Source: Rhizobium leguminosarum bv. trifolii WSM1325
GTDB taxonomy: Bacteria; Pseudomonadota; Alphaproteobacteria; Rhizobiales; Rhizobiaceae
Assembly: GCA_000023185.1 (NCBI GenBank)
Contig: CP001626.1
Coordinates: 186,001-250,000 of the forward strand
Direction: 5' to 3'
Length of the DNA: 64,000 nt
Below the pieces are notes generated by a model, which had not been told where the DNA came from, ran no database searches, and saw nothing but the letters and a program-made list of their open reading frames with translations. This document shows positions 47,405 to 59,623 of the stretch, piece by piece (position 1 is the stretch's first letter; each line of letters begins with the position of its first letter). A program made the translations under genes and the position numbers.

Positions 47405-47653
47405 TCATTTCGCCTCGAACGCCGCCCGTTTGCGAGCGTTGAACGCATCGAAATCGAAGGGCGTGGCAGGGCCGGATTCTTCGCCTTCAATCAAGGCGTC
47501 CTGCAATGCCTTCACTTTGGCTTCGTGTTCTTCAAGTAGGCGAAGGCCCGCCCGGACAACGTCGCTGGCTGAACCATAGCGGCCAGCCTGAACCTGCGTA
47601 TCAATGAAGCTGGTGAAATGGTCACTGAGCGATATGGACGTATTTCTAGCCAT
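47405..47653 (-). CDS. parD: ParD-family antitoxin (orphan)
   Basis: An 82-aa ribbon-helix-helix protein: RNTSISLSDHFTSFIDTQVQAGRYGSASDVVRAGLRLLEEHEAKVKAL matches ParD DNA-binding domains. In ParDE systems the toxin parE follows parD directly. Here the next gene, 6 bases away, is a convergent oxidoreductase on the other strand, so no toxin gene is present on the expected side. AAAGGAG serves as ribosome site. An operator palindrome lies upstream. Confidence 0.9.
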   Translation of the reverse strand: MARNTSISLSDHFTSFIDTQVQAGRYGSASDVVRAGLRLLEEHEAKVKALQDALIEGEESGPATPFDFDAFNARKRAAFEAK

Positions 47654-48805: not shown

Positions 48806-50320
48806 TCAGTTCTTGACCGTGTCTTCCAGGAAGAAGCGGCCGAGCGGGTTCTGATAGAAGTTCTCGATATTCTTGCGCGAGACGTTGATATAGGGGCTGT
48901 AATAGAGGTCGATCCAGTTGACGTCGTCCTTGGCCATCTTCTGCAGATCGACATACATCTGCTCGCGCTTCTTCGGGTCGAGTTCGAGACGCGCCTTGGC
49001 GACCAGTTCCTTCACTGCCTCGCTCTTGTAATTGGTCGAATAATTGTTGTTGGAATCGTGGCCGAGGACGAAGGTGGTCTTCTGGTCCGGATCGAGAATG
49101 TCGTTTGTCCAGTAGTTGACCGAAACGTCGTAGTCGCCGGCAACGATCATGTCCCATTCCTGGCTCGGGTCGACCTTCTGCAGATTGGCGGTGATGCCGG
49201 CCTTCTGCAACTGCTGCTGGACCAGAACGGCCGTCTGTTCGTCGACTTCGTCGCCGGCACGGACCAGATAATTCAGCGTCAGGTCCGAGGCGCCGGCGGC
49301 CGCCAACAGCTCCTTTGCCTTTCCGGGATCATAAGGCCGCTGCAGATTGTCGGCATAATAATAGAGAGCGCCCTTTGGAATATAGGAGTTGGCGACCGTT
49401 CCCTGGCCGAAGGTGACGGTATCGACGATCGCCTTCTTGTCGATCGCGAGATCAAGCGCCTGGCGGACTTCCTTCTTGCCGAGCGCGCCATGCGCATGGT
49501 TGATCAGAAGATGGTCCTCACGGGTCGAAGCGTCGATATCGACGTTGAGGTTCGGGTCCTTCTTCAGCTCCTCGACGCGGGAGAAGGGCACGAAGATCGC
49601 CGTATCCAGCTCGCCGGCCTGAACGTTCAGCATGCGGGTATTGTCGTCAGGCACCGAGATCCACTCGACACCGTCGAGCTTCACCCGGTCCGCCTGCCAG
49701 AAATTCGGGTTCTTCTTCAGTATGACGCGGTCGCCGCGCCGCCATTCCTCGACGGTGAATGCGCCGGACGCGATCGGCTTTTCGCCATAGGCGTCGGCGC
49801 CCAGCGATTCCATGCCCTTCTTGGAGATGACGGAGGCATTCGGCAGCGCCAGCGTCGAAAGGAACGGCGCGGACGGGTTCTTGAGCTTGATCGTCAGCGT
49901 GTGCGCGTCGGTCGCCACCGCCGTGTCGATCACCTTATAGGAATCGCTCCAGAGCGAGGCAGCGTCGTCGCGGATGCGCAGCAGGCTGTAGGCCGCGTCT
50001 TCCGCCGTCAGCGGCGAACCGTCGGAAAATTTCGCGTCGCGGATCTTGAACGTGTAGGTCAGCCCGTCATCCGAGGCAGTCCAGCTTTCGGCAAGGCCCG
50101 GCTCCAGTTTCGTGCCTGTCTTGTCGACCCGGATCAGCACGTCGTAGACGTTGGAGAACACCCAGTTGTCGATGTTCTGCGCGGTCTTGATCGGATCGAA
50201 TGTCGTCGAATCCTCGCGGCGGCCGATGGTGAGTACACCGGCGGCCTCGGCATAGCTTGCGCTGAGCGTCAGGCCGGCGAGCAAGGCTGCAAGCCCAATT
50301 GATTTCCACCTGTTTGTCAT
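48806..50320 (-). CDS. Peptide-type ABC transporter substrate-binding protein, family 5
   Basis: A 504-aa periplasmic receptor with signal peptide MTNRWKSIGLAALLAGLTLSASYAEA. Family-5 features include VLTIGRREDSTTFDPIKTAQNIDNWVF, LEPGLAESWTASDDGLTYTFKIRD and the KFSDGSPLTAEDAAYSLLRI lid block. Last gene of the operon starting with the proline-iminopeptidase-like gene at 54777, coming 19 bases after the ATPase. It likely delivers a peptide or peptide-like plant compound that matters to the LuxR-type regulator. Confidence 0.92.
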   Translation of the reverse strand: MTNRWKSIGLAALLAGLTLSASYAEAAGVLTIGRREDSTTFDPIKTAQNIDNWVFSNVYDVLIRVDKTGTKLEPGLAESWTASDDGLTYTFKIRDAKFSDGSPLTAEDAAYSLLRIRDDAASLWSDSYKVIDTAVATDAHTLTIKLKNPSAPFLSTLALPNASVISKKGMESLGADAYGEKPIASGAFTVEEWRRGDRVILKKNPNFWQADRVKLDGVEWISVPDDNTRMLNVQAGELDTAIFVPFSRVEELKKDPNLNVDIDASTREDHLLINHAHGALGKKEVRQALDLAIDKKAIVDTVTFGQGTVANSYIPKGALYYYADNLQRPYDPGKAKELLAAAGASDLTLNYLVRAGDEVDEQTAVLVQQQLQKAGITANLQKVDPSQEWDMIVAGDYDVSVNYWTNDILDPDQKTTFVLGHDSNNNYSTNYKSEAVKELVAKARLELDPKKREQMYVDLQKMAKDDVNWIDLYYSPYINVSRKNIENFYQNPLGRFFLEDTVKN

Positions 50321-50339
50321 GAGTTCGTTCCCTTCGTTG

Positions 50340-52052
50340 TTATGGCATGCGTTTGATTGATTGAATCGGCATCGAATGCGGATCGTCCTTGCCGTCGGCG
50401 TCTTGAAGCAGCCGCTTGTCAGGATCGATGTCGGGAATGGCGGCGATCAGCGCCGCCGTATAGGGATGTTTCGGCCGCGCGAAGACCTCTTCGGAGCGAC
50501 CTTCCTCGACGATCTCGCCGCGATACATTACGACGACGCGTTCGCAGAGATTGCGGACGATCGCGAGATCATGGGCGATGAAGATCAACGTCAGGTTCAT
50601 CTTCGCCGTGAGCTCGCGGAAGAGCTCGATGATCTGCGCCTGGATGGTGACGTCGAGGGCCGCCACGCATTCGTCGGCGATGATCAGCTTCGGATTGACG
50701 GCGAGCGCACGGGCGATGCCGGCGCGCTGGCACTGGCCGCCGCTCATGCTGCGCGGTTTGCGGCCGGCGAATTCGCGTTCGAGGCCGACGAGATCGAGCA
50801 GTTCGCCGATTCGAACAGGGATATCGGCCCTGGCGACCTTGCCCTGCACCTTCAGCACCTCGGCCAGCATCTGCCCGATCGTCAGCCGCGGATTGAGCGC
50901 GTTATAGGGATCTTGGAAGACCATCGCCGTCTCGCGCCTGAGCTTTGCCAGGCCGGCACTCTTCTGCAGCGCCAGATCGACGCCGTCGAAGGTGACGTGG
51001 CCCGAGGAAAGCGGCGTGAGGCCGAGCACGGCGCGGGCAAGCGTGCTCTTGCCGCTGCCGGATTCGCCGACGATGCCGACCGTCTCGCCCGGCATGATCT
51101 GCAGGCTGACGCCGGCAACGGCGCTGACCGTCTTGGCACCGCCCCTGAGCAGGGCGCCGCCGGCTCTGAAACGCACATGGAGATCATCGATTTCGAGCAA
51201 TGGCCGCCTCGCCGGTTGGCTGGCCGCGGCAAGCTCGAGCAGCGGCGCGACCGTCTCGCCCGGGATGGAAGGGTGGCTGTTGATCAGGTTGATCGTATAG
51301 GGATGTTGCGGCCGCGCCAGGATCGTCCGCTTCGGCCCCTCTTCGAGCAGCTTGCCGCCGCGCAGCACGGCAATACGGTCGCAAGTCTGGGCGACGATAC
51401 CGAGATCGTGGGTGATCAGAATGATCGACAGGCCGCGCCGGTCGCGAATGTCAATCAACAGCCGCAGGATCTGCGCCTGGATAGTCACGTCGAGCGCCGT
51501 GGTCGGCTCATCAGCGATCAGGATCTTCGGATTGCAGGACAGCGCCACGCCGATCATCGCCCGCTGCCGCATGCCACCGGAAAATTCGTGCGGATAGCTA
51601 TCGTACTGGCGCTTCGGATCGGGGAAGCCGACTTGCGCCAGGATTTCCGTCGCCGCGGCGCGAGCCTCGCGGGCGCCGAGGCCCTGGTGATAACGGATGC
51701 CCTCAGCGATCTGATCGCCGATCCGCATCACCGGGTCGAGATGGCTGGTCGGGTTCTGGAAGATCATGCCGATCTCGCCACCGCGCACTTTCAGCATCTC
51801 GCCATCGTCGATCCGCATGAGGTCGCGCCCTTCGAGCAGCACGCTACCGCTTTCGATCTTCAGCAACGAGGAGGGCAGCAGGCGCACCAGGGAACGGCAG
51901 AACAGGCTCTTGCCCGAGCCGCTCTCGCCGACGAGACCGAGGATCTGACCCTTGCCGAGATCGAGCGACACCGCATCGAGCAGCGTGCGCGGGCCGGAAT
52001 CGACATGTGCCCTGACGGTGAGATCACGGACGGACAGCACGGAGCCGCTCAT
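50340..52052 (-). CDS. Peptide-type ABC transporter ATP-binding protein (two fused NBDs)
   Basis: A 570-aa fused DppD/DppF-like ATPase. Domain 1: GESGSGKSLF, FSGGMRQRAMIG, LIADEPTTALDVTIQ. Domain 2: GESGSGKSTLARAV, MSGGQCQRAGIARAL and LIIADECVAALDVTIQ; the Walker B DEP is changed to DEC. A C-terminal tail with the FARPKHPYTAALIAAIPDIDPD stretch is standard. One protein energises both permeases. Its start overlaps the permease stop by ATGA. Confidence 0.92.
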   Translation of the reverse strand: MSGSVLSVRDLTVRAHVDSGPRTLLDAVSLDLGKGQILGLVGESGSGKSLFCRSLVRLLPSSLLKIESGSVLLEGRDLMRIDDGEMLKVRGGEIGMIFQNPTSHLDPVMRIGDQIAEGIRYHQGLGAREARAAATEILAQVGFPDPKRQYDSYPHEFSGGMRQRAMIGVALSCNPKILIADEPTTALDVTIQAQILRLLIDIRDRRGLSIILITHDLGIVAQTCDRIAVLRGGKLLEEGPKRTILARPQHPYTINLINSHPSIPGETVAPLLELAAASQPARRPLLEIDDLHVRFRAGGALLRGGAKTVSAVAGVSLQIMPGETVGIVGESGSGKSTLARAVLGLTPLSSGHVTFDGVDLALQKSAGLAKLRRETAMVFQDPYNALNPRLTIGQMLAEVLKVQGKVARADIPVRIGELLDLVGLEREFAGRKPRSMSGGQCQRAGIARALAVNPKLIIADECVAALDVTIQAQIIELFRELTAKMNLTLIFIAHDLAIVRNLCERVVVMYRGEIVEEGRSEEVFARPKHPYTAALIAAIPDIDPDKRLLQDADGKDDPHSMPIQSIKRMP

Positions 52053-52900
52053 TCATGCACCCCCAGCAGTTCGCCGAGCGCGTCGCCCAGCATGCTGAAA
52101 CCGAAGGCGAGGCAGACGATGGAGAGGCCGGGAAACAAAGTGATCCACCATGCCGTGGTGATGAAGCTCTGTCCTTCCGCGACCATGACGCCCCATTCGG
52201 CGATCGGTGGCTGGACGCCGAGGCCGAGATAGCTGACGGCGGCGCCGCTGAGCAGCACCAGCGTCGCATCGGACATCGAAAAGACGATCGAGCCGGCGAT
52301 CGCGTTCGGCAAAAGATGGCGGAACATGATGCGCGGGCGACTGAAGCCGAGGCTGACGGCGGCAACGGCATAGTCGCTGCCTTTCAGCACCAGCATCTGC
52401 GCCCGGATCAGCCGTGCATAGGAAACCCAGCCGACCAGCGCCATGGCGATGTAGAAGCTGCCGAGGCCCGGTCCGAGGATCGCGATGATCGACAGCATCA
52501 GCACCAGGAAGGGAAAGGCGAGGATGATATCGACGAGGCGCATGAACAGCGCATCGACGATCCCGCCGAAGAAGCCGGCGATCGTGCCGACCGTCGTGCC
52601 GATTACGAAGGGGAAGATGACGCCGATCAGCGCCATCTGCAGGTCGAGGCGCGCGCCCCAGATGACGCGGGAAAGGATATCGCGGCCGAAATTGTCGGTA
52701 CCGAAGGGATGCAACAGCGAAGGCGCCTGCAGGCGCACCTCGGCATTCTGCATGATCGGGTCGTAGGGCGCGACGATAGGCGCGCCGATCGCCAGCAGCA
52801 CGAAGAACAGCAGCAGGCCGGCACTGAGCACAAGCATCGGCCGCCGGCCGAAGAACCGGCGCCAGCGGGGGGAGGCGGGGGCGATCGCCTCGATGCTCAT
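52049..52900 (-). CDS. Peptide-type ABC transporter permease (DppC-like)
   Basis: A 283-aa permease. It has the DppC opening helix (PMLVLSAGLLLFFVLLAIG), HPFGTDNFGRDILSRVIWGARLDLQ and coupling loop GSDYAVAAVSLGFSRPRIMFRHLLPNAIA. Start and stop overlap neighbours by ATGA. Works with the DppB-like permease at 52897. Confidence 0.92.
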   Translation of the reverse strand: MSIEAIAPASPRWRRFFGRRPMLVLSAGLLLFFVLLAIGAPIVAPYDPIMQNAEVRLQAPSLLHPFGTDNFGRDILSRVIWGARLDLQMALIGVIFPFVIGTTVGTIAGFFGGIVDALFMRLVDIILAFPFLVLMLSIIAILGPGLGSFYIAMALVGWVSYARLIRAQMLVLKGSDYAVAAVSLGFSRPRIMFRHLLPNAIAGSIVFSMSDATLVLLSGAAVSYLGLGVQPPIAEWGVMVAEGQSFITTAWWITLFPGLSIVCLAFGFSMLGDALGELLGVHE

Positions 52901-53835
52901 AGCTTCACCCTCGGATCGACGGCGACAGTGACGATGTCGGCAATGAAGTTGATGAGTACGGTGGCGCAGGCAAAGACCATGGCGACGCCTTGAACCACCA
53001 TGTAGTCGCGTGAGAAGATCGCCCTGACCAGCAGCTGTCCCATGCCGGGCAGCGCAAAGACGCTCTCGACCACCACCGTGCCGCCGATCAGCCAGCCGAT
53101 GTTGACAGCAAGCAGATTGATCGTCGGCACCAGTGAATTCGGCAGCACATGCCGCCAGAAGACGATCCCCTCCGGCATGCCGCGGGCGCGCGCCGCCGTC
53201 GCGACATCCGATTTCAGTTGCTCGATCATCGCCGCCCGCAGGCTGCGCGTCAGCACGGTCGAGAGCGACAGCGCGACCGTCAGGCTCGGCAGCACGAGAT
53301 GCGACAGCTTTTCGCCGATCGTCGCACCATAGCCCGAAACCGGCAGCACGCCGAGTTCGACGCTGAACAGGATGATCAGCATCAGCCCCAGCCAGAAGGG
53401 CGGAAAACCGATGCCGAAGGTCGAGACGATGCGCACCGCATGATCCGGCGCCCGGCCGGCATTGCGTGCGGCGATCGCCGACATCGGTACCGCGATCAGG
53501 ACCGAAAGCACGACGCTGGAGACGACGAGCGCAAGCGTCGGCTCGATGCGGGTGACGATCAGCTTCAGCACGTCGATCTTGTAGAGGATCGACTTGCCCA
53601 TCTCGCCATTGGCGAGGTTCTTGAGGAAATAGACATATTGCAGCCACATCGGCTGGTCGAGCCCATACTGGGCGCGGATACTGGCAAGGGCTGCCGGCGT
53701 CGCGCGCGTGCCGAGGATGTTGCGCGCCGGATCACCGGGGATCAACCGGACCAGAATGAAAGTGATGACGCTGATGCCGAAGATGACGGGCAGGAACTGC
53801 AGCGGTCGCGTCAGAACGAATTTATAGCGATGCAT
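52897..53835 (-). CDS. Peptide-type ABC transporter permease (DppB-like)
   Basis: A 312-aa permease opening with RPLQFLPVIFGISVITFILVRLIPGDPARNILG, the DppB standard. The coupling loop reads QLKSDVATAARARGMPEGIVFWRHVLPNSLVP. It follows the iminopeptidase-like gene by 51 bases on the same strand, so peptidase and importer are expressed together. Confidence 0.92.
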   Translation of the reverse strand: MHRYKFVLTRPLQFLPVIFGISVITFILVRLIPGDPARNILGTRATPAALASIRAQYGLDQPMWLQYVYFLKNLANGEMGKSILYKIDVLKLIVTRIEPTLALVVSSVVLSVLIAVPMSAIAARNAGRAPDHAVRIVSTFGIGFPPFWLGLMLIILFSVELGVLPVSGYGATIGEKLSHLVLPSLTVALSLSTVLTRSLRAAMIEQLKSDVATAARARGMPEGIVFWRHVLPNSLVPTINLLAVNIGWLIGGTVVVESVFALPGMGQLLVRAIFSRDYMVVQGVAMVFACATVLINFIADIVTVAVDPRVKL

Positions 53836-53886
53836 GACGGCGATCGCCCCTTTGTCTTCGTCTGGTTCGGTCCGCTTCCTGTTGCA

Positions 53887-54777
53887 TCAGCCTGCCTCGT
53901 GCCGGGCGAGAAAATCGAGAAGCGCCGGATAATAATCCTGCGGGTTCTCATAGAACGGCATGTGGCTGGCATTGGCAAATACCTTCAGCTCGGCATTCGG
54001 CAGCGCAAGCTTCATCCTCAGCGCACAGGCCGGCGTCAGCTCGTCATGTTCTCCCGTCGTGATGAGCACCGGCAGCGTCAGCCGCGGCAGGTCGGGTATA
54101 CGGTTCCAGTCCTTGAGGTTGCCGATATAGAGAAACTCGTTCGGCCCCTGCATCGTCTCATAGGGCGCCATGTTCCAATCGTCGAGCGAGCGGCGCACCG
54201 GCGCCGGCCATTCCGGCAGACGGCAGACATGGCGGTAGTTGAGGATGGTGACGGCGGCGAGATATTCCGGATGATTGTAGGTGCCTTGCGCCTCGTGCTT
54301 CTGCATCATCGAGACAGTTTCGGGACCGAGTGCCGCGCGCAGCCGTTCCAGTTCCGAGATCAGATGCGGCATATCGGCGACGGTATCTTCGAGGATCAGC
54401 GTCTTGAGGTTTTCGGGATAGGTCACCGCGTATTCGATCGCCAGCCAGCCGCCCCAGGAATGGCCGAGCATGTGGACCTTGCCGAGCCCCAGCGCCTTGC
54501 GCACCGTCTCCGTCTCTTCGACATAACGGCCGATCGTCCAGAGCGAGAGATCGTCCGGCCGGTCGGAAGCGCCGGTGCCGAGTTGGTCGAAGGCGACGAC
54601 GCGATAGCCCTTGTCGATGAGACAGGAATGCGCCTCGCGCAGGTAATCGCAGGGCAGACCCGGCCCGCCGTTCAGGCAGAAAACCGTCTCGCTGCCGGTC
54701 CCGAAACTATAGGCAACGACGCGATAGCCATCGACATCGATCTCGAATCGCTCGTCCGGCCGTATTTCACGCCACAT
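53887..54777 (-). CDS. Proline-iminopeptidase-like alpha/beta hydrolase (Pip1)
   Basis: A 296-aa S33-type hydrolase. Catalytic residues: Ser in LGHSWGGW, Asp in TTGEHDELTP, His in ANASHMPF. The oxyanion HGGPG has His replaced by Asn (LNGGPGLPCDYL). The ATG at 54777 is preferred for GGAG six bases upstream; a TTG further up lacks support. It is the first gene of the operon with the peptide importer and is divergent from the LuxR solo gene. A shared palindrome lies about 88 bases upstream. Likely cleaves N-terminal proline from an imported peptide or a similar bond in a signal compound. Confidence 0.9.
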   Translation of the reverse strand: MWREIRPDERFEIDVDGYRVVAYSFGTGSETVFCLNGGPGLPCDYLREAHSCLIDKGYRVVAFDQLGTGASDRPDDLSLWTIGRYVEETETVRKALGLGKVHMLGHSWGGWLAIEYAVTYPENLKTLILEDTVADMPHLISELERLRAALGPETVSMMQKHEAQGTYNHPEYLAAVTILNYRHVCRLPEWPAPVRRSLDDWNMAPYETMQGPNEFLYIGNLKDWNRIPDLPRLTLPVLITTGEHDELTPACALRMKLALPNAELKVFANASHMPFYENPQDYYPALLDFLARHEAG

Positions 54778-54854
54778 TGATCGCTCCGGCAGAAGATTTC
54801 GCTTGCTCAATATTTGGGCACGGCTAAATTTTTACCTTAAACCGCATTCAGTGC

Positions 54855-54877
54855 CAGCTATAAGAAGTGATAGGGTG
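54855..54877. promoter_or_regulatory. Lux-box-like palindromic element 1 (pip1/luxR divergent promoter)
   Basis: On the minus strand the core is CTATCACTTCTTATAG (54873-54858), an imperfect palindrome, flanked by CAC before and CTG after. It matches the element at 55719-55741 at 20 of 23 positions, both reading toward a pip gene. A TAAAAA -10-like hexamer at 54834-54829 would put the box centre near -43 for pip1. The luxR start is about 42 bases away on the other side. Confidence 0.75.
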
Positions 54878-54907
54878 GGCCGCAATGCCGAACCCCGGGA
54901 GCAGCCC

Positions 54908-55735
54908 ATGCTTGACGACCCCATTCGTGACGACCCCATTCTTGACGATATCGGAACGATCAGACGGCAGTTTACAGCGCACGAAACGCTTGATGGACGC
55001 ATCGACCAGGCCTTCGAGGCGATGAAGCAGATAGGCTTCGAGGCGCTGATCTACGACTATACACCGGTGCCTTACGATCTCGACGGCGCGATCATGATAC
55101 CATCGCTGCTGAAGCTGCGGAATATCTCCGACGATATGCACGATTACTGGTTCAATCGCGGCTATTTCCGTATCGATCCGGTGCAGCAGGTGGCGCTGCG
55201 CACCTCCGCGCCCTTCTTCTGGAACTACGACCCGGACGCCGACACGCTGATCAACCGTTTCATGACCGAAGACACCGCGCCGGTGACGCGCTATTTGAGC
55301 GAACGCGATATGTCGACCGGCGTCACCGTTCCGGTTCATATGCCACGCGGCGACTATGCGACCGTCACCGGCATCCGCTTCGGCCGGAACAAAGATTTCG
55401 AGCGGCACGCACTGCGCTATATCGCCGACTTCAACCTGCTTGCCCATGTTTTCCATGAGACCGCCTATTCGCTTTTCGACACGCGGGCGAAGAGCGTCGG
55501 CACGATCCGCCTGACCGAGCGGGAACGTGAATGCCTGCGCCATTCGGCGGAAGGTTACTCCGCCAAGGAAATTTCCCGCATCATCGACCGTTCGGTACCG
55601 ACCGTCGTGATGCATCTGAACGCCGCGACAAAGAAACTCGGCGCCCGCAACCGAACCCAGGCCGTGGTGCGCGCCACCCATTACCGCCTGCTCGAAGACC
55701 GGCCTACCCATAATTGGCCACCCTATAACTTGTGA
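54908..55735 (+). CDS. LuxR-family solo regulator of the plant-responsive (OryR/PipR/NesR) type
   Basis: A 275-aa LuxR-type regulator with an N-terminal autoinducer-binding domain and a C-terminal GerE helix-turn-helix (LTERERECL, GYSAKEISRIIDRSVPTVVMHLNAATKKLGARNRTQAV, residues about 202-254). Aligned on TraR numbering, residue 57 is Met (M77) and 61 is Trp (W81), while D70 (D90), P71 (P91), W85 (W105) and the glycine near 113 (G138) are kept. That W57M/Y61W pair marks the plant-responsive solos that do not bind acyl-homoserine lactones. No luxI is present. Divergent from pip1, followed by pip2. Confidence 0.93.
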   Translation: MLDDPIRDDPILDDIGTIRRQFTAHETLDGRIDQAFEAMKQIGFEALIYDYTPVPYDLDGAIMIPSLLKLRNISDDMHDYWFNRGYFRIDPVQQVALRTSAPFFWNYDPDADTLINRFMTEDTAPVTRYLSERDMSTGVTVPVHMPRGDYATVTGIRFGRNKDFERHALRYIADFNLLAHVFHETAYSLFDTRAKSVGTIRLTERERECLRHSAEGYSAKEISRIIDRSVPTVVMHLNAATKKLGARNRTQAVVRATHYRLLEDRPTHNWPPYNL

Positions 55736-55741
55736 TAGCTG
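55719..55741. promoter_or_regulatory. Lux-box-like palindromic element 2 (upstream of pip2)
   Basis: Core CTATAACTTGTGATAG (55723-55738), flanked by CAC and CTG, is a better palindrome (CTAT-N-AC-NN-GT-N-ATAG). It overlaps the luxR stop codon, so it lies in a normally coding position. TATGCT at 55763-55768 is a plausible -10, placing the box centre near -44 of pip2. Same orientation relative to pip2 as element 1 has to pip1. Confidence 0.78.
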
Positions 55742-55787
55742 CCTTCACCGTTGCCGCCGCGTTATGCTTTTTTCATGACGCCAAGAG

Positions 55788-56702
55788 ATGGAGACACCGG
55801 TGGGCGAAGTCACGACCAAAGAAGCTTACCTGCCCTTTCGCGACTATCGCACCTGGTATCGCGTCACCGGTTCGCTGGAGAGCGGCAAGCTGCCCCTCGT
55901 CGTCGCCCATGGCGGGCCTGGCTGCACCCATGATTATGTCGATTCCTTCAAGGATATCGCCGCCCTCGACGGCCGTCCGGTCATCCATTACGACCAGCTC
56001 GGCAATGGCAATTCCACCCGACTTCCGGAAAAAGGCCCGGATTTCTGGACGGTCGGCCTGTTCCTCGAGGAGCTGGACACGCTACTTTCCCATCTCGGCA
56101 TTCGGGATCGTTATGCCTTCCTCGGCCAGTCCTGGGGCGGCATGCTCGGCGCCGAACATGCGGTGCGCCAGCCGCAAGGTCTGAAGGCGCTTGTCATCGC
56201 CAACTCGCCGGCCAACATGCACACCTGGGTTTCGGAGGCGAACCGGCTGAGGCAGGAACTGCCGAAAGAGGTGCAGGACACGCTGCTGAAGCATGAGCTG
56301 GTGGGAAGCCTCACCGATCCGGACTATATCGCCGCCTCACGCGTCTTCTATGACCGCCATGTCTGCCGCGTGGTGCCGTGGCCGCCTGAAGTGGCGCGGA
56401 CCTTTGCAATCATGGACGAGGACAACACCGTCTACCGCAACATGAACGGCCCGACCGAATTTCACGTCATCGGTACGATGAAAGACTGGACGATCGAGAA
56501 CAGGCTGGACCGCATCGAAGCCCCGACGCTGCTGATCTCGGGAAAATACGACGAGGCGACGCCCCTGGTGGTAAGGCCCTATCTCGAACGCGTTCCGGGC
56601 TGCGAATGGGTGCTCTTCGAAAATTCCAGCCATATGCCGCATGTCGAGGAAAAGCAGCTTTGCCTGGCGACCGTTTCCGGTTTCCTGTCCCGGCACGACT
56701 GA
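55788..56702 (+). CDS. Proline-iminopeptidase-like alpha/beta hydrolase (Pip2)
   Basis: A 304-aa S33-type hydrolase, paralogous to Pip1. Catalytic residues: Ser in [10 protein letters not shown], Asp in SGKYDEATP, His in NSSHMPHVE. The oxyanion motif is the canonical [11 protein letters not shown], unlike the NGGPG of Pip1. The ATG at 55788 is used; a GTG four codons on with GGAG upstream is possible. The gene lies downstream of the LuxR solo gene with element 2 ahead of it, as in the XccR-pip and PipR-pipA pairs of other plant-associated bacteria. Confidence 0.92.
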
Positions 56703-58711: not shown

Positions 58712-59623
58712 CTATCCGCGAACCAGCCATTTCTTGGCAACGCGGCAAGCCATCGTATAGGCCGGGTCGAAGACGTTGCCGACGTCATAACGCACCACCT
58801 GGCCGAGCAGATGGCTGGCCGCCGTCCTGTCCAGCCCATAATCCGATGCCAGCCAGGTCAACATTTCGCTGGTCGCGTGCTGGAGCGCTTGATCGAGTGG
58901 CCGGGCGTTGCCGATGGTGAAGATGTCTTCGGCGGTTTCCCCGCGCGGCCAGACCAGTCCGGCCTTCTTTTCCACCGTCAGCCGCACCGTGACCTCGAAC
59001 GTCGTCTCGATGCCGGTCCCGACGATCTCGCCATCCCCTTGCACGGCATGGCAGTCGCCCAGAAAGAACAGGGCGCCGGGGGCCGCTACGGGCAAGCGGA
59101 GGGTGGTGCCGGGGCCGAACAGCCGATAATCCATGTTGCCGCCATATTCACCGCTGGTCGCCGTCGATATCGCCTGGCTGAGGCTGGGCGCCACGCCGAA
59201 ACAGCCGATCATCGGGGCGAGGGGCAGAACGAAATTTTCAAGACCTGCAACCGGCTCGGAAAGCCGGACGGTCAATGCCTCACGGTCGATCGCCCAGATG
59301 GCGATATCGCGCGGTGGCAGGTCACGAACCGACTCGGGATCGACGACATTGGCCGCGACGACGCTGCGGGTAAACCCCGTGTCCCTGGTCGGGATCATGC
59401 TGATGATCTCGACCTTCAGCGCATCCCCCGGCTCAGCACCTTCCACGAAGATCGGGCCGTTCATCGGATTGCCGCCGGGCGCCTGCTTGATGCCGTCCTT
59501 GTCATGCCCGGCGGCGTCGAGCGTCTCAGTGACCACGGTGTCGCCGTCGGCGATGTGCAGGGCCGGCGGAAGAGAGCCGATGACATTGTGAAAGCTCGTC
59601 GGAATGAAGCGGTGAGTGGTCAT
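58712..59623 (-). CDS. Acetamidase/formamidase-family amidohydrolase
   Basis: A 303-aa FmdA/AmdA-family protein, recognised by VIGSLPPALHIADGDTVVTETLDAAG, GNPMNGPIFVEGAEPGDALKVEII and LFFLGDCHAVQGDGEIVGTGIE, with the conserved His of GDCHAVQGDGE. It hydrolyses short amides such as formamide or acetamide to ammonia and acid. It stands alone, convergent to the NmrA-like gene; its upstream region (59624 on) carries no identified regulator. Confidence 0.92.
   Translation of the reverse strand: MTTHRFIPTSFHNVIGSLPPALHIADGDTVVTETLDAAGHDKDGIKQAPGGNPMNGPIFVEGAEPGDALKVEIISMIPTRDTGFTRSVVAANVVDPESVRDLPPRDIAIWAIDREALTVRLSEPVAGLENFVLPLAPMIGCFGVAPSLSQAISTATSGEYGGNMDYRLFGPGTTLRLPVAAPGALFFLGDCHAVQGDGEIVGTGIETTFEVTVRLTVEKKAGLVWPRGETAEDIFTIGNARPLDQALQHATSEMLTWLASDYGLDRTAASHLLGQVVRYDVGNVFDPAYTMACRVAKKWLVRG

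Follow-up and report, generated by a model that had tools for sequence, protein, structure and literature searches.

In plant-associated bacteria (PAB), LuxR-type regulators of the solo kind are repeatedly encoded next to proline iminopeptidase (pip) genes, and the published passages available to us, to which all statements drawn here from cited work refer, already describe the arrangement with which this report is concerned. The layout 'pip/peptide transporter - luxR - pip' has been tabulated for NesR, OryR, XccR and PsoR, with Rhizobium included (PMC10134790 Table 1, PMC4338825), and subgroup 0 of the tabulated solos also includes Rhizobium (PMC10134790). We analysed a 64-kb stretch of DNA (hereafter, the window) from the clover symbiont Rhizobium leguminosarum bv. 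trifolii WSM1325. It spans 186001-250000 on plasmid pR132504, and in it a cassette of this kind occupies 48806-56702: the genes for a substrate-binding protein (SBP), a fused ATPase, the permeases OppC and OppB and the peptidase pip1 lie on the minus strand, with a divergent luxR-pip2 pair on the plus strand. We put at about 0.8 the probability that this cassette represents, in Rhizobium, the NesR/PipR ('Pip') system of PAB LuxR solos, to which the model developed for Pseudomonas GM79 can be transferred.

In GM79, two distinct peptidases, AapA and PipA, flank PipR, an arrangement that has been likened to that of E. meliloti nesR; mutation of the pipA site abolished activation, an importer mutant was silent, and peptidase mutants over-responded (PMC4981722). 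The PipR ligand is the ethanolamine derivative HEHEAA (PMC10134790, PMC7301841), and at high concentration a tripeptide also had activity (PMC4981722). The WSM1325 locus shares with this system an AapA-importer operon on one side of the regulator and PipA on the other, an AapF-type SBP and two predicted sites at near-equal distances, and differs from it in the binding pocket (W57/W61 in GM79, M57/W61 here) and in the importer, where GM79 has two nucleotide-binding domain genes and WSM1325 one fused ATPase. An earlier note on this DNA, made from the letters alone, had counted PipR among the W57M proteins, which is at odds with the W57/W61 reported for GM79 (PMC4981722, PMC7301841); it had also taken the layout with two Pip proteins for undescribed, a claim ruled out by the published arrangements of S. 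meliloti NesR and of GM79 AapA/PipA (PMC4981722, PMC10134790, PMC4338825).

NesR of S. meliloti and E. aridi is a close rhizobial relative by layout, pip/peptide transporter - nesR - pip (PMC10134790 Table 1, PMC8877191). Our rhizobial comparison comprised the best 80 of 234 related stretches, all of them rhizobial, and includes a locus of E. aridi LMR001 (L092) with the same cassette and a LuxR 86% identical to that of WSM1325. This being the sole strong LuxR match in that strain, its luxR is probably the published E. aridi nesR, judging from the strain, the uniqueness of the match and the adjacent pip gene; the comparison with NesR at the sequence level is thus with the E. aridi protein, not with NesR of S. 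meliloti 1021. The two differ in that nodulation and stress phenotypes are published for NesR and that the WSM1325 copy is plasmid-borne, and the open-access literature searched yielded no phenotype for the WSM1325 cassette. OryR, XccR and PsoR are likewise pip-linked solos with W57M/Y61W, and a CT(N12)AG pip box is reported for OryR (PMC4338825, PMC4471428); they differ in their Xanthomonas or Pseudomonas hosts and, for OryR/XocR, in additional targets reached through imperfect boxes.

The seven genes of the cassette sit where the earlier note had placed them, according to coordinates, domain matches and the NCBI annotation, and its five-gene series pip1-permease-permease-ATPase-SBP was recovered with OppB, OppC, a fused ATPase and an SBP_bac_5 protein in that order. 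The gaps between these minus-strand genes range from -4 to 51 bp, with two 4-bp overlaps, so the series reads as one operon. The sequence traits of the PAB LuxR solos (OryR/PipR/NesR) were found, namely the domains, W57M/Y61W, the lack of a cognate luxI, an adjacent pip gene and a pip box, as was the gene set of the GM79 Pip/Aap system, an AapF-type SBP and an Opp-type importer in a predicted operon with AapA.

The regulator carries the Autoind_bind (PF03472, 2e-29) and GerE (PF00196, 3.2e-13) domains, both over the cut-off. In alignments to the RhlR and QscR structures in the PDB, residues M77 and W81, counted from ATG 54908, fall in the columns of W57 and Y61, whereas D70, P71, W85 and G113 are retained and the Y53 column holds Ile; the numbering of these pocket columns is what we take to be that of TraR. 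The Met and Trp that the earlier note had read at positions 57 and 61 are thereby borne out. Pocket residues of LuxR-type proteins are covered in PMC3821632. The M57/W61 pair is kept in all 80 loci and, among the six Autoind_bind proteins of the genome, occurs solely in this one, three of the others being W/Y, one L/Y and one Y/F. A search of the genome for the luxI family gave two matches, on contigs C1 and C4, and none on C5, the replicon that carries the cassette, in keeping with the earlier note, which had seen no luxI. As an observation on the gene itself, a short tandem duplication at the luxR 5' end (54908-54950, GACGACCCCATTC twice) adds N-terminal residues when translation is counted from ATG 54908; 17 aligned LuxR relatives begin about 10 residues downstream, at the NCBI-annotated start.

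These data bear on the alternative that the protein is a solo responsive to N-acyl-homoserine lactones (AHLs), hearing AHLs of its own or of foreign bacteria, with the pip genes as mere neighbours. The retained autoinducer-binding domain and its D70, P71, W85 and G113, together with the two luxI-family genes on other replicons of the genome, would suit such a regulator, whereas the invariance of M57/W61 in the 80 loci, when three of the five other Autoind_bind proteins of the genome are W/Y, the constant linkage to importer and peptidases, and the unresponsiveness of OryR and PipR to AHLs (PMC4981722) argue against it, and we regard it as very improbable.

What seems to be new at this locus is a pair of candidate regulator-binding sites that would tie LuxR to its own genes; the layout is known. 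Two 24-bp elements, one upstream of each peptidase gene, share 21 of their 24 bases, have the same orientation relative to pip2 and pip1, and both fit CT(N12)AG, which pip and las boxes have as their common core (PMC4471428). Under a base-composition model, 0.00018 matches at 20/24 or better are expected in the window, and no further copy was found in the window at up to 8 mismatches. The pip2 site is centred at about -69.5 from GTG 55800 (-57.5 from ATG 55788) and the pip1 site at about -88.5 from ATG 54777; the GM79 sites lie at -71.5 and -91.5 (PMC4981722), so that the two sets agree within 3 bp. Across the 80 loci, where the best match per promoter was taken, so that every promoter yields one, and where the centres of the 24-mers are one base off those derived from coordinates, the pip1 site falls between -83.5 and -91.5 in all, and the pip2 site between -62.5 and -73.5 in 76, the other four lying at -84.5 to -140.5. 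Sixteen of the 24 columns are invariant at each promoter in 80/80 loci, and column conservation averages 0.95, compared with 0.44 and 0.79 in the sequences flanking the pip1 site and 0.66 and 0.71 in those flanking the pip2 site. The loci are related and hence not independent; the likeness of the two sites to each other in a single genome stands apart from this. Some of the conservation of the pip2 site may be coding, since this site runs over the stop codon of luxR; the pip1 site is intergenic.

The reach of the element appears to be narrow. Throughout the 7.4-Mb genome of WSM1325, at up to 3 mismatches, the pattern matches just these two places, each with 0 mismatches, whereas the reversed control gives 5 matches. 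When 120 genomes of the genus were searched with up to 2 mismatches allowed, the matches listed included the pair in all 79 luxR-positive genomes, in 78 of them as one forward and one reverse match and in G504 with one extra; stray matches occurred in 3 of the 41 genomes counted as luxR-negative (the cross-table was counted by hand, and 21 of these 41 were taken as the remainder). Matches outside the pairs numbered 5, against 10 for the control. At the stringency used, the predicted regulon would be the cassette itself, which suggests a closed local circuit.

It is on this point that a different account of the regulator has to be considered, in which a NesR-type global regulator of stress and methionine metabolism has its own cassette as one of many targets. 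Deletion of nesR in E. aridi LMR001 lowers nodulation and salt tolerance, and S. meliloti NesR is linked to the methionine cycle (PMC8877191). However, two sites in the whole genome against five for the reversed control, and fewer matches outside the pairs than the control gives among the genus genomes, speak against dispersed targets, and direct binding elsewhere is not reported in the available passages on NesR. We therefore judge a global regulator to be unlikely.

If the WSM1325 cassette is a copy of the NesR/PipR system, by analogy with GM79 it would operate as follows. The AapF-like SBP and the Opp-type importer would take up a small plant-derived amide or peptide-like compound; LuxR, with its M57/W61 pocket non-standard for AHLs, would bind the imported compound and activate the pip2/pipA and pip1/aapA-importer promoters through the paired candidate CT(N12)AG elements; the alanine-preferring AapA-type and the proline-preferring PipA-type S33 peptidases would then degrade the inducer and switch the circuit off. 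What is said here of uptake, sensing, promoter activation, the preferences of the peptidases and negative feedback is all carried over from GM79. The importer-sensor-peptidase model of the earlier note thus stands in so far as it accords with the published PipR model, the orthology of the parts and the conserved candidate sites, and a response to a plant compound would hold here by analogy.

Several observations weigh against this interpretation. The elements were spotted by eye and tested afterwards, and in GM79 itself the effect of PipR on aapA was only small (PMC4981722). Kosakonia PsrR, of the same subfamily, did not respond to root extract or to HEHEAA (PMC7301841), and a close homologue of AapF reportedly fails to bind HEHEAA (PMC10134790), which makes transfer of the ligand by homology unsafe. 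Methionine cycling and stress have been connected with NesR (PMC8877191, PMC5977203), for which the predicted mean regulon size is 8.24 genes (PMC4560400), and imperfect boxes at other places are reported for XocR/OryR (PMC4399327), so that a regulon confined to the cassette may be too narrow a view. Furthermore, a weight matrix built from the rhizobial sites finds both sites in L130 and one in L194, among the more distant loci, and little in the others: no site exceeds the threshold in L193, L131-L133, L135 or L137, and those in L134 and L136 are weak. Because most of the distant loci have no recognisable element of this form, our confidence in this interpretation is slightly lower. Loci L131-L134 are termed Pseudomonas-type here on account of the match, at 1029 bits, between the L131 SBP and Pseudomonas AapF. 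In them the box may perhaps have diverged to ACCTA-like half-sites: in the promoter comparison, a CT(N12)AG pair ranked first or tied for first in L131, L132 and L134, with just 13-14 of 20 positions identical, and in L131 and L132 it was no better than unrelated pairs, while in L133 a different pair scored best and a similar dyad appears in the dyad list. The Pseudomonas box in these loci is accordingly uncertain.

The individual parts were identified as follows. The SBP is a clear relative of AapF, matching PDB entries 7kz8/7kz9 with 800 bits over residues 23-504 (the next match has 181 bits), and is 71% identical to its L131 orthologue. Both peptidases, 37% identical to each other, exceed the TIGR01250 cut-off of 167.65 bits, pip1 with 269.8 and pip2 with 256.1, and possess serine nucleophile elbows, GHSWG and GQSWG, so that the pip-like gene claimed for either side of luxR is present on both. 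HGGPG is the usual motif form in the S33 proline iminopeptidase family; it is found in pip2 in all 80 rhizobial loci, and pip1 has NGGPG in all 80. The pip1 protein is 71-73% identical to the syntenic gene product of L131-L134. Among the pip1-like proteins of the wider comparison, those at 54% identity or above carry Asn, L187/L199 (56%, His) being the sole exception, and those at 46% or below carry His, one of them as HGGLG; confinement of Asn to the closer relatives implies that NGGPG marks the AapA clade. In GM79, AapA has a preference for alanine and PipA for proline, although PipA cleaves alanine almost equally well (PMC4981722 Table 1), so pip1 is better named aapA, and the label of iminopeptidase, which had been applied to both proteins, is probably wrong for this one, as its clade membership suggests. 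The possibility that NGGPG is a peculiarity of this strain was dismissed, the motif being shared by the rhizobial, Pseudomonas-type and other alphaproteobacterial AapA-like copies with that one exception. As to the ATPase, its two domains are fused in the window (50340-52052) and apparently in L130, which gives a single full-length match, and occur as two separate matches in L131-L135 and L192-L195.

The cassette is also conserved as a block. Six genes are present in 80/80 loci and pip2 in 79/80, with constant order and orientation, the exception, L077, ending nearby at a contig edge. The neighbours are not kept: a glutathione S-transferase (GST) gene occurs in at least 28 of the 80 loci, an acetamidase gene in at least 24 and an AraC gene in at least 6, lower bounds as some loci are cut short, and a wider conserved neighbourhood was rejected on these counts. 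The cassette is thus, from comparison of the loci, an evolutionary unit; gene content, orthology, synteny, pocket residues, and the paired sites with their restriction to it at the stringency used are direct observations. A strong luxR orthologue is present in 79 of the 120 genus genomes, among them WSM1325; at the level of the phylum, 12 of 398 genomes contain one at E <= 1e-30, and four of these belong to this genus.

Beyond the rhizobial set, the gene order is identical in L130-L134, L193 and L194 at 43-57% LuxR identity; L193 (7201-16400) and L194 (4122-13091) contain a tandem AapA pair plus PipA, that is, three peptidases per LuxR. L135 and L136 are cassettes without AapA, and L137 has a luxR without a nearby pip gene, a pip-like gene lying on another contig of the same genome. 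Conversely, L192 (8224-14382) and L195 (8618-14799) contain aapA with a complete importer, and no luxR or pipA in the stretch taken, which begins about 8 kb before aapA and runs 2-3 kb past the SBP gene; L198 and L200 are weaker cases. The system therefore looks modular. In both L192 and L195 a kinase-like (APH family) gene precedes the aapA module. Among the neighbours of these luxR-less modules, the kinase-like and amidase genes are weak hints, and formate dehydrogenase genes look unrelated.

Such modules, aapA-OppB-OppC-ATPase-SBP, found in L192 and L195 in two genomes of another alphaproteobacterial family, are what would be expected if the cassette were in essence a substrate-inducible catabolic operon, in which the compound is mainly a nutrient, AapA and PipA are catabolic, and LuxR is the inducer sensor of the operon, not an inter-kingdom receptor. 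The second gene upstream of aapA in L195 encodes a carbon-nitrogen hydrolase, and the restriction of the sites to the cassette, at the stringency used, also fits. However, the nodulation and stress phenotypes of the Ensifer aridi nesR deletion exceed the loss of one nutrient (PMC8877191), L192 and L195 belong to one genus and so represent one or few lineages, and the upstream hydrolase of L200 scores as an N-carbamoylputrescine amidase, which points to another pathway. This account seems quite possible, if somewhat short of even odds, and nutrient and signal roles are compatible. A further proposition is that the cassette would be a closed, self-contained switch for the import and destruction of one compound, with peptidases that cleave the inducer, and that 'plant signalling' would amount to substrate-induced catabolism of ethanolamide-like compounds in rhizobia and pseudomonads. 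We hold this as a tentative and rather doubtful proposal. HEHEAA, N-(2-hydroxyethyl)-2-(2-hydroxyethylamino)acetamide, is an N-substituted glycine amide in which the amide bond adjoins a secondary (imino) amine. Judging from this chemistry, its cleavage by an imino- or aminopeptidase seems feasible, with N-(2-hydroxyethyl)glycine and ethanolamine as the products.

The coordinates of the cassette features are collected in Table 1. Outside the cassette, an acetamidase/formamidase family gene, the family counted among the neighbours above, lies at 58712-59623 of the window and is possibly unrelated, and an annotated ParD-family antitoxin gene at 47405-47653 has no annotated toxin partner adjoining it.

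Table 1. Genes and candidate regulatory sites of the cassette, in window coordinates
Feature	Position	Strand	Basis or remark
aapF-like periplasmic substrate-binding protein (SBP_bac_5)	48806..50320	-	best PDB match AapF 7kz8/7kz9
fused two-domain OppD/OppF-type ATPase	50340..52052	-	domain matches
OppC-type permease	52049..52900	-	domain matches
OppB-type permease	52897..53835	-	domain matches
pip1, aapA-like S33 peptidase, NGGPG, GHSWG nucleophile elbow	53887..54777	-	TIGR01250 269.8 bits
candidate LuxR-binding site, pip1 side; also upstream of luxR	54855..54878	-	CT(N12)AG core, 21/24 identity to pip2 site
luxR solo, NesR/PipR orthologue	54908..55735	+	ATG 54908; NCBI start 54938
candidate LuxR-binding site, pip2 side, overlaps luxR stop codon	55718..55741	+	CT(N12)AG core
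pip2, pipA-like proline iminopeptidase, HGGPG, GQSWG	55800..56702	+	TIGR01250 256.1 bits; NCBI start GTG 55800, alternative ATG 55788

The passages of PMC4338825 and PMC13133039 available to us do not mention WSM1325, and we saw no prior description of this locus or of rhizobial boxes in the open-access literature searched. The cassette is real, complete and conserved, and it is ordinary in kind; the regulatory picture that emerges is sharper than that in the published passages. For most PAB LuxR solos, the field has yet to settle what the natural ligand is and what the pip genes do. A complete, conserved locus in a clover symbiont, with a defined pair of candidate sites, turns the local regulon and the consumption of the inducer into directly testable claims.

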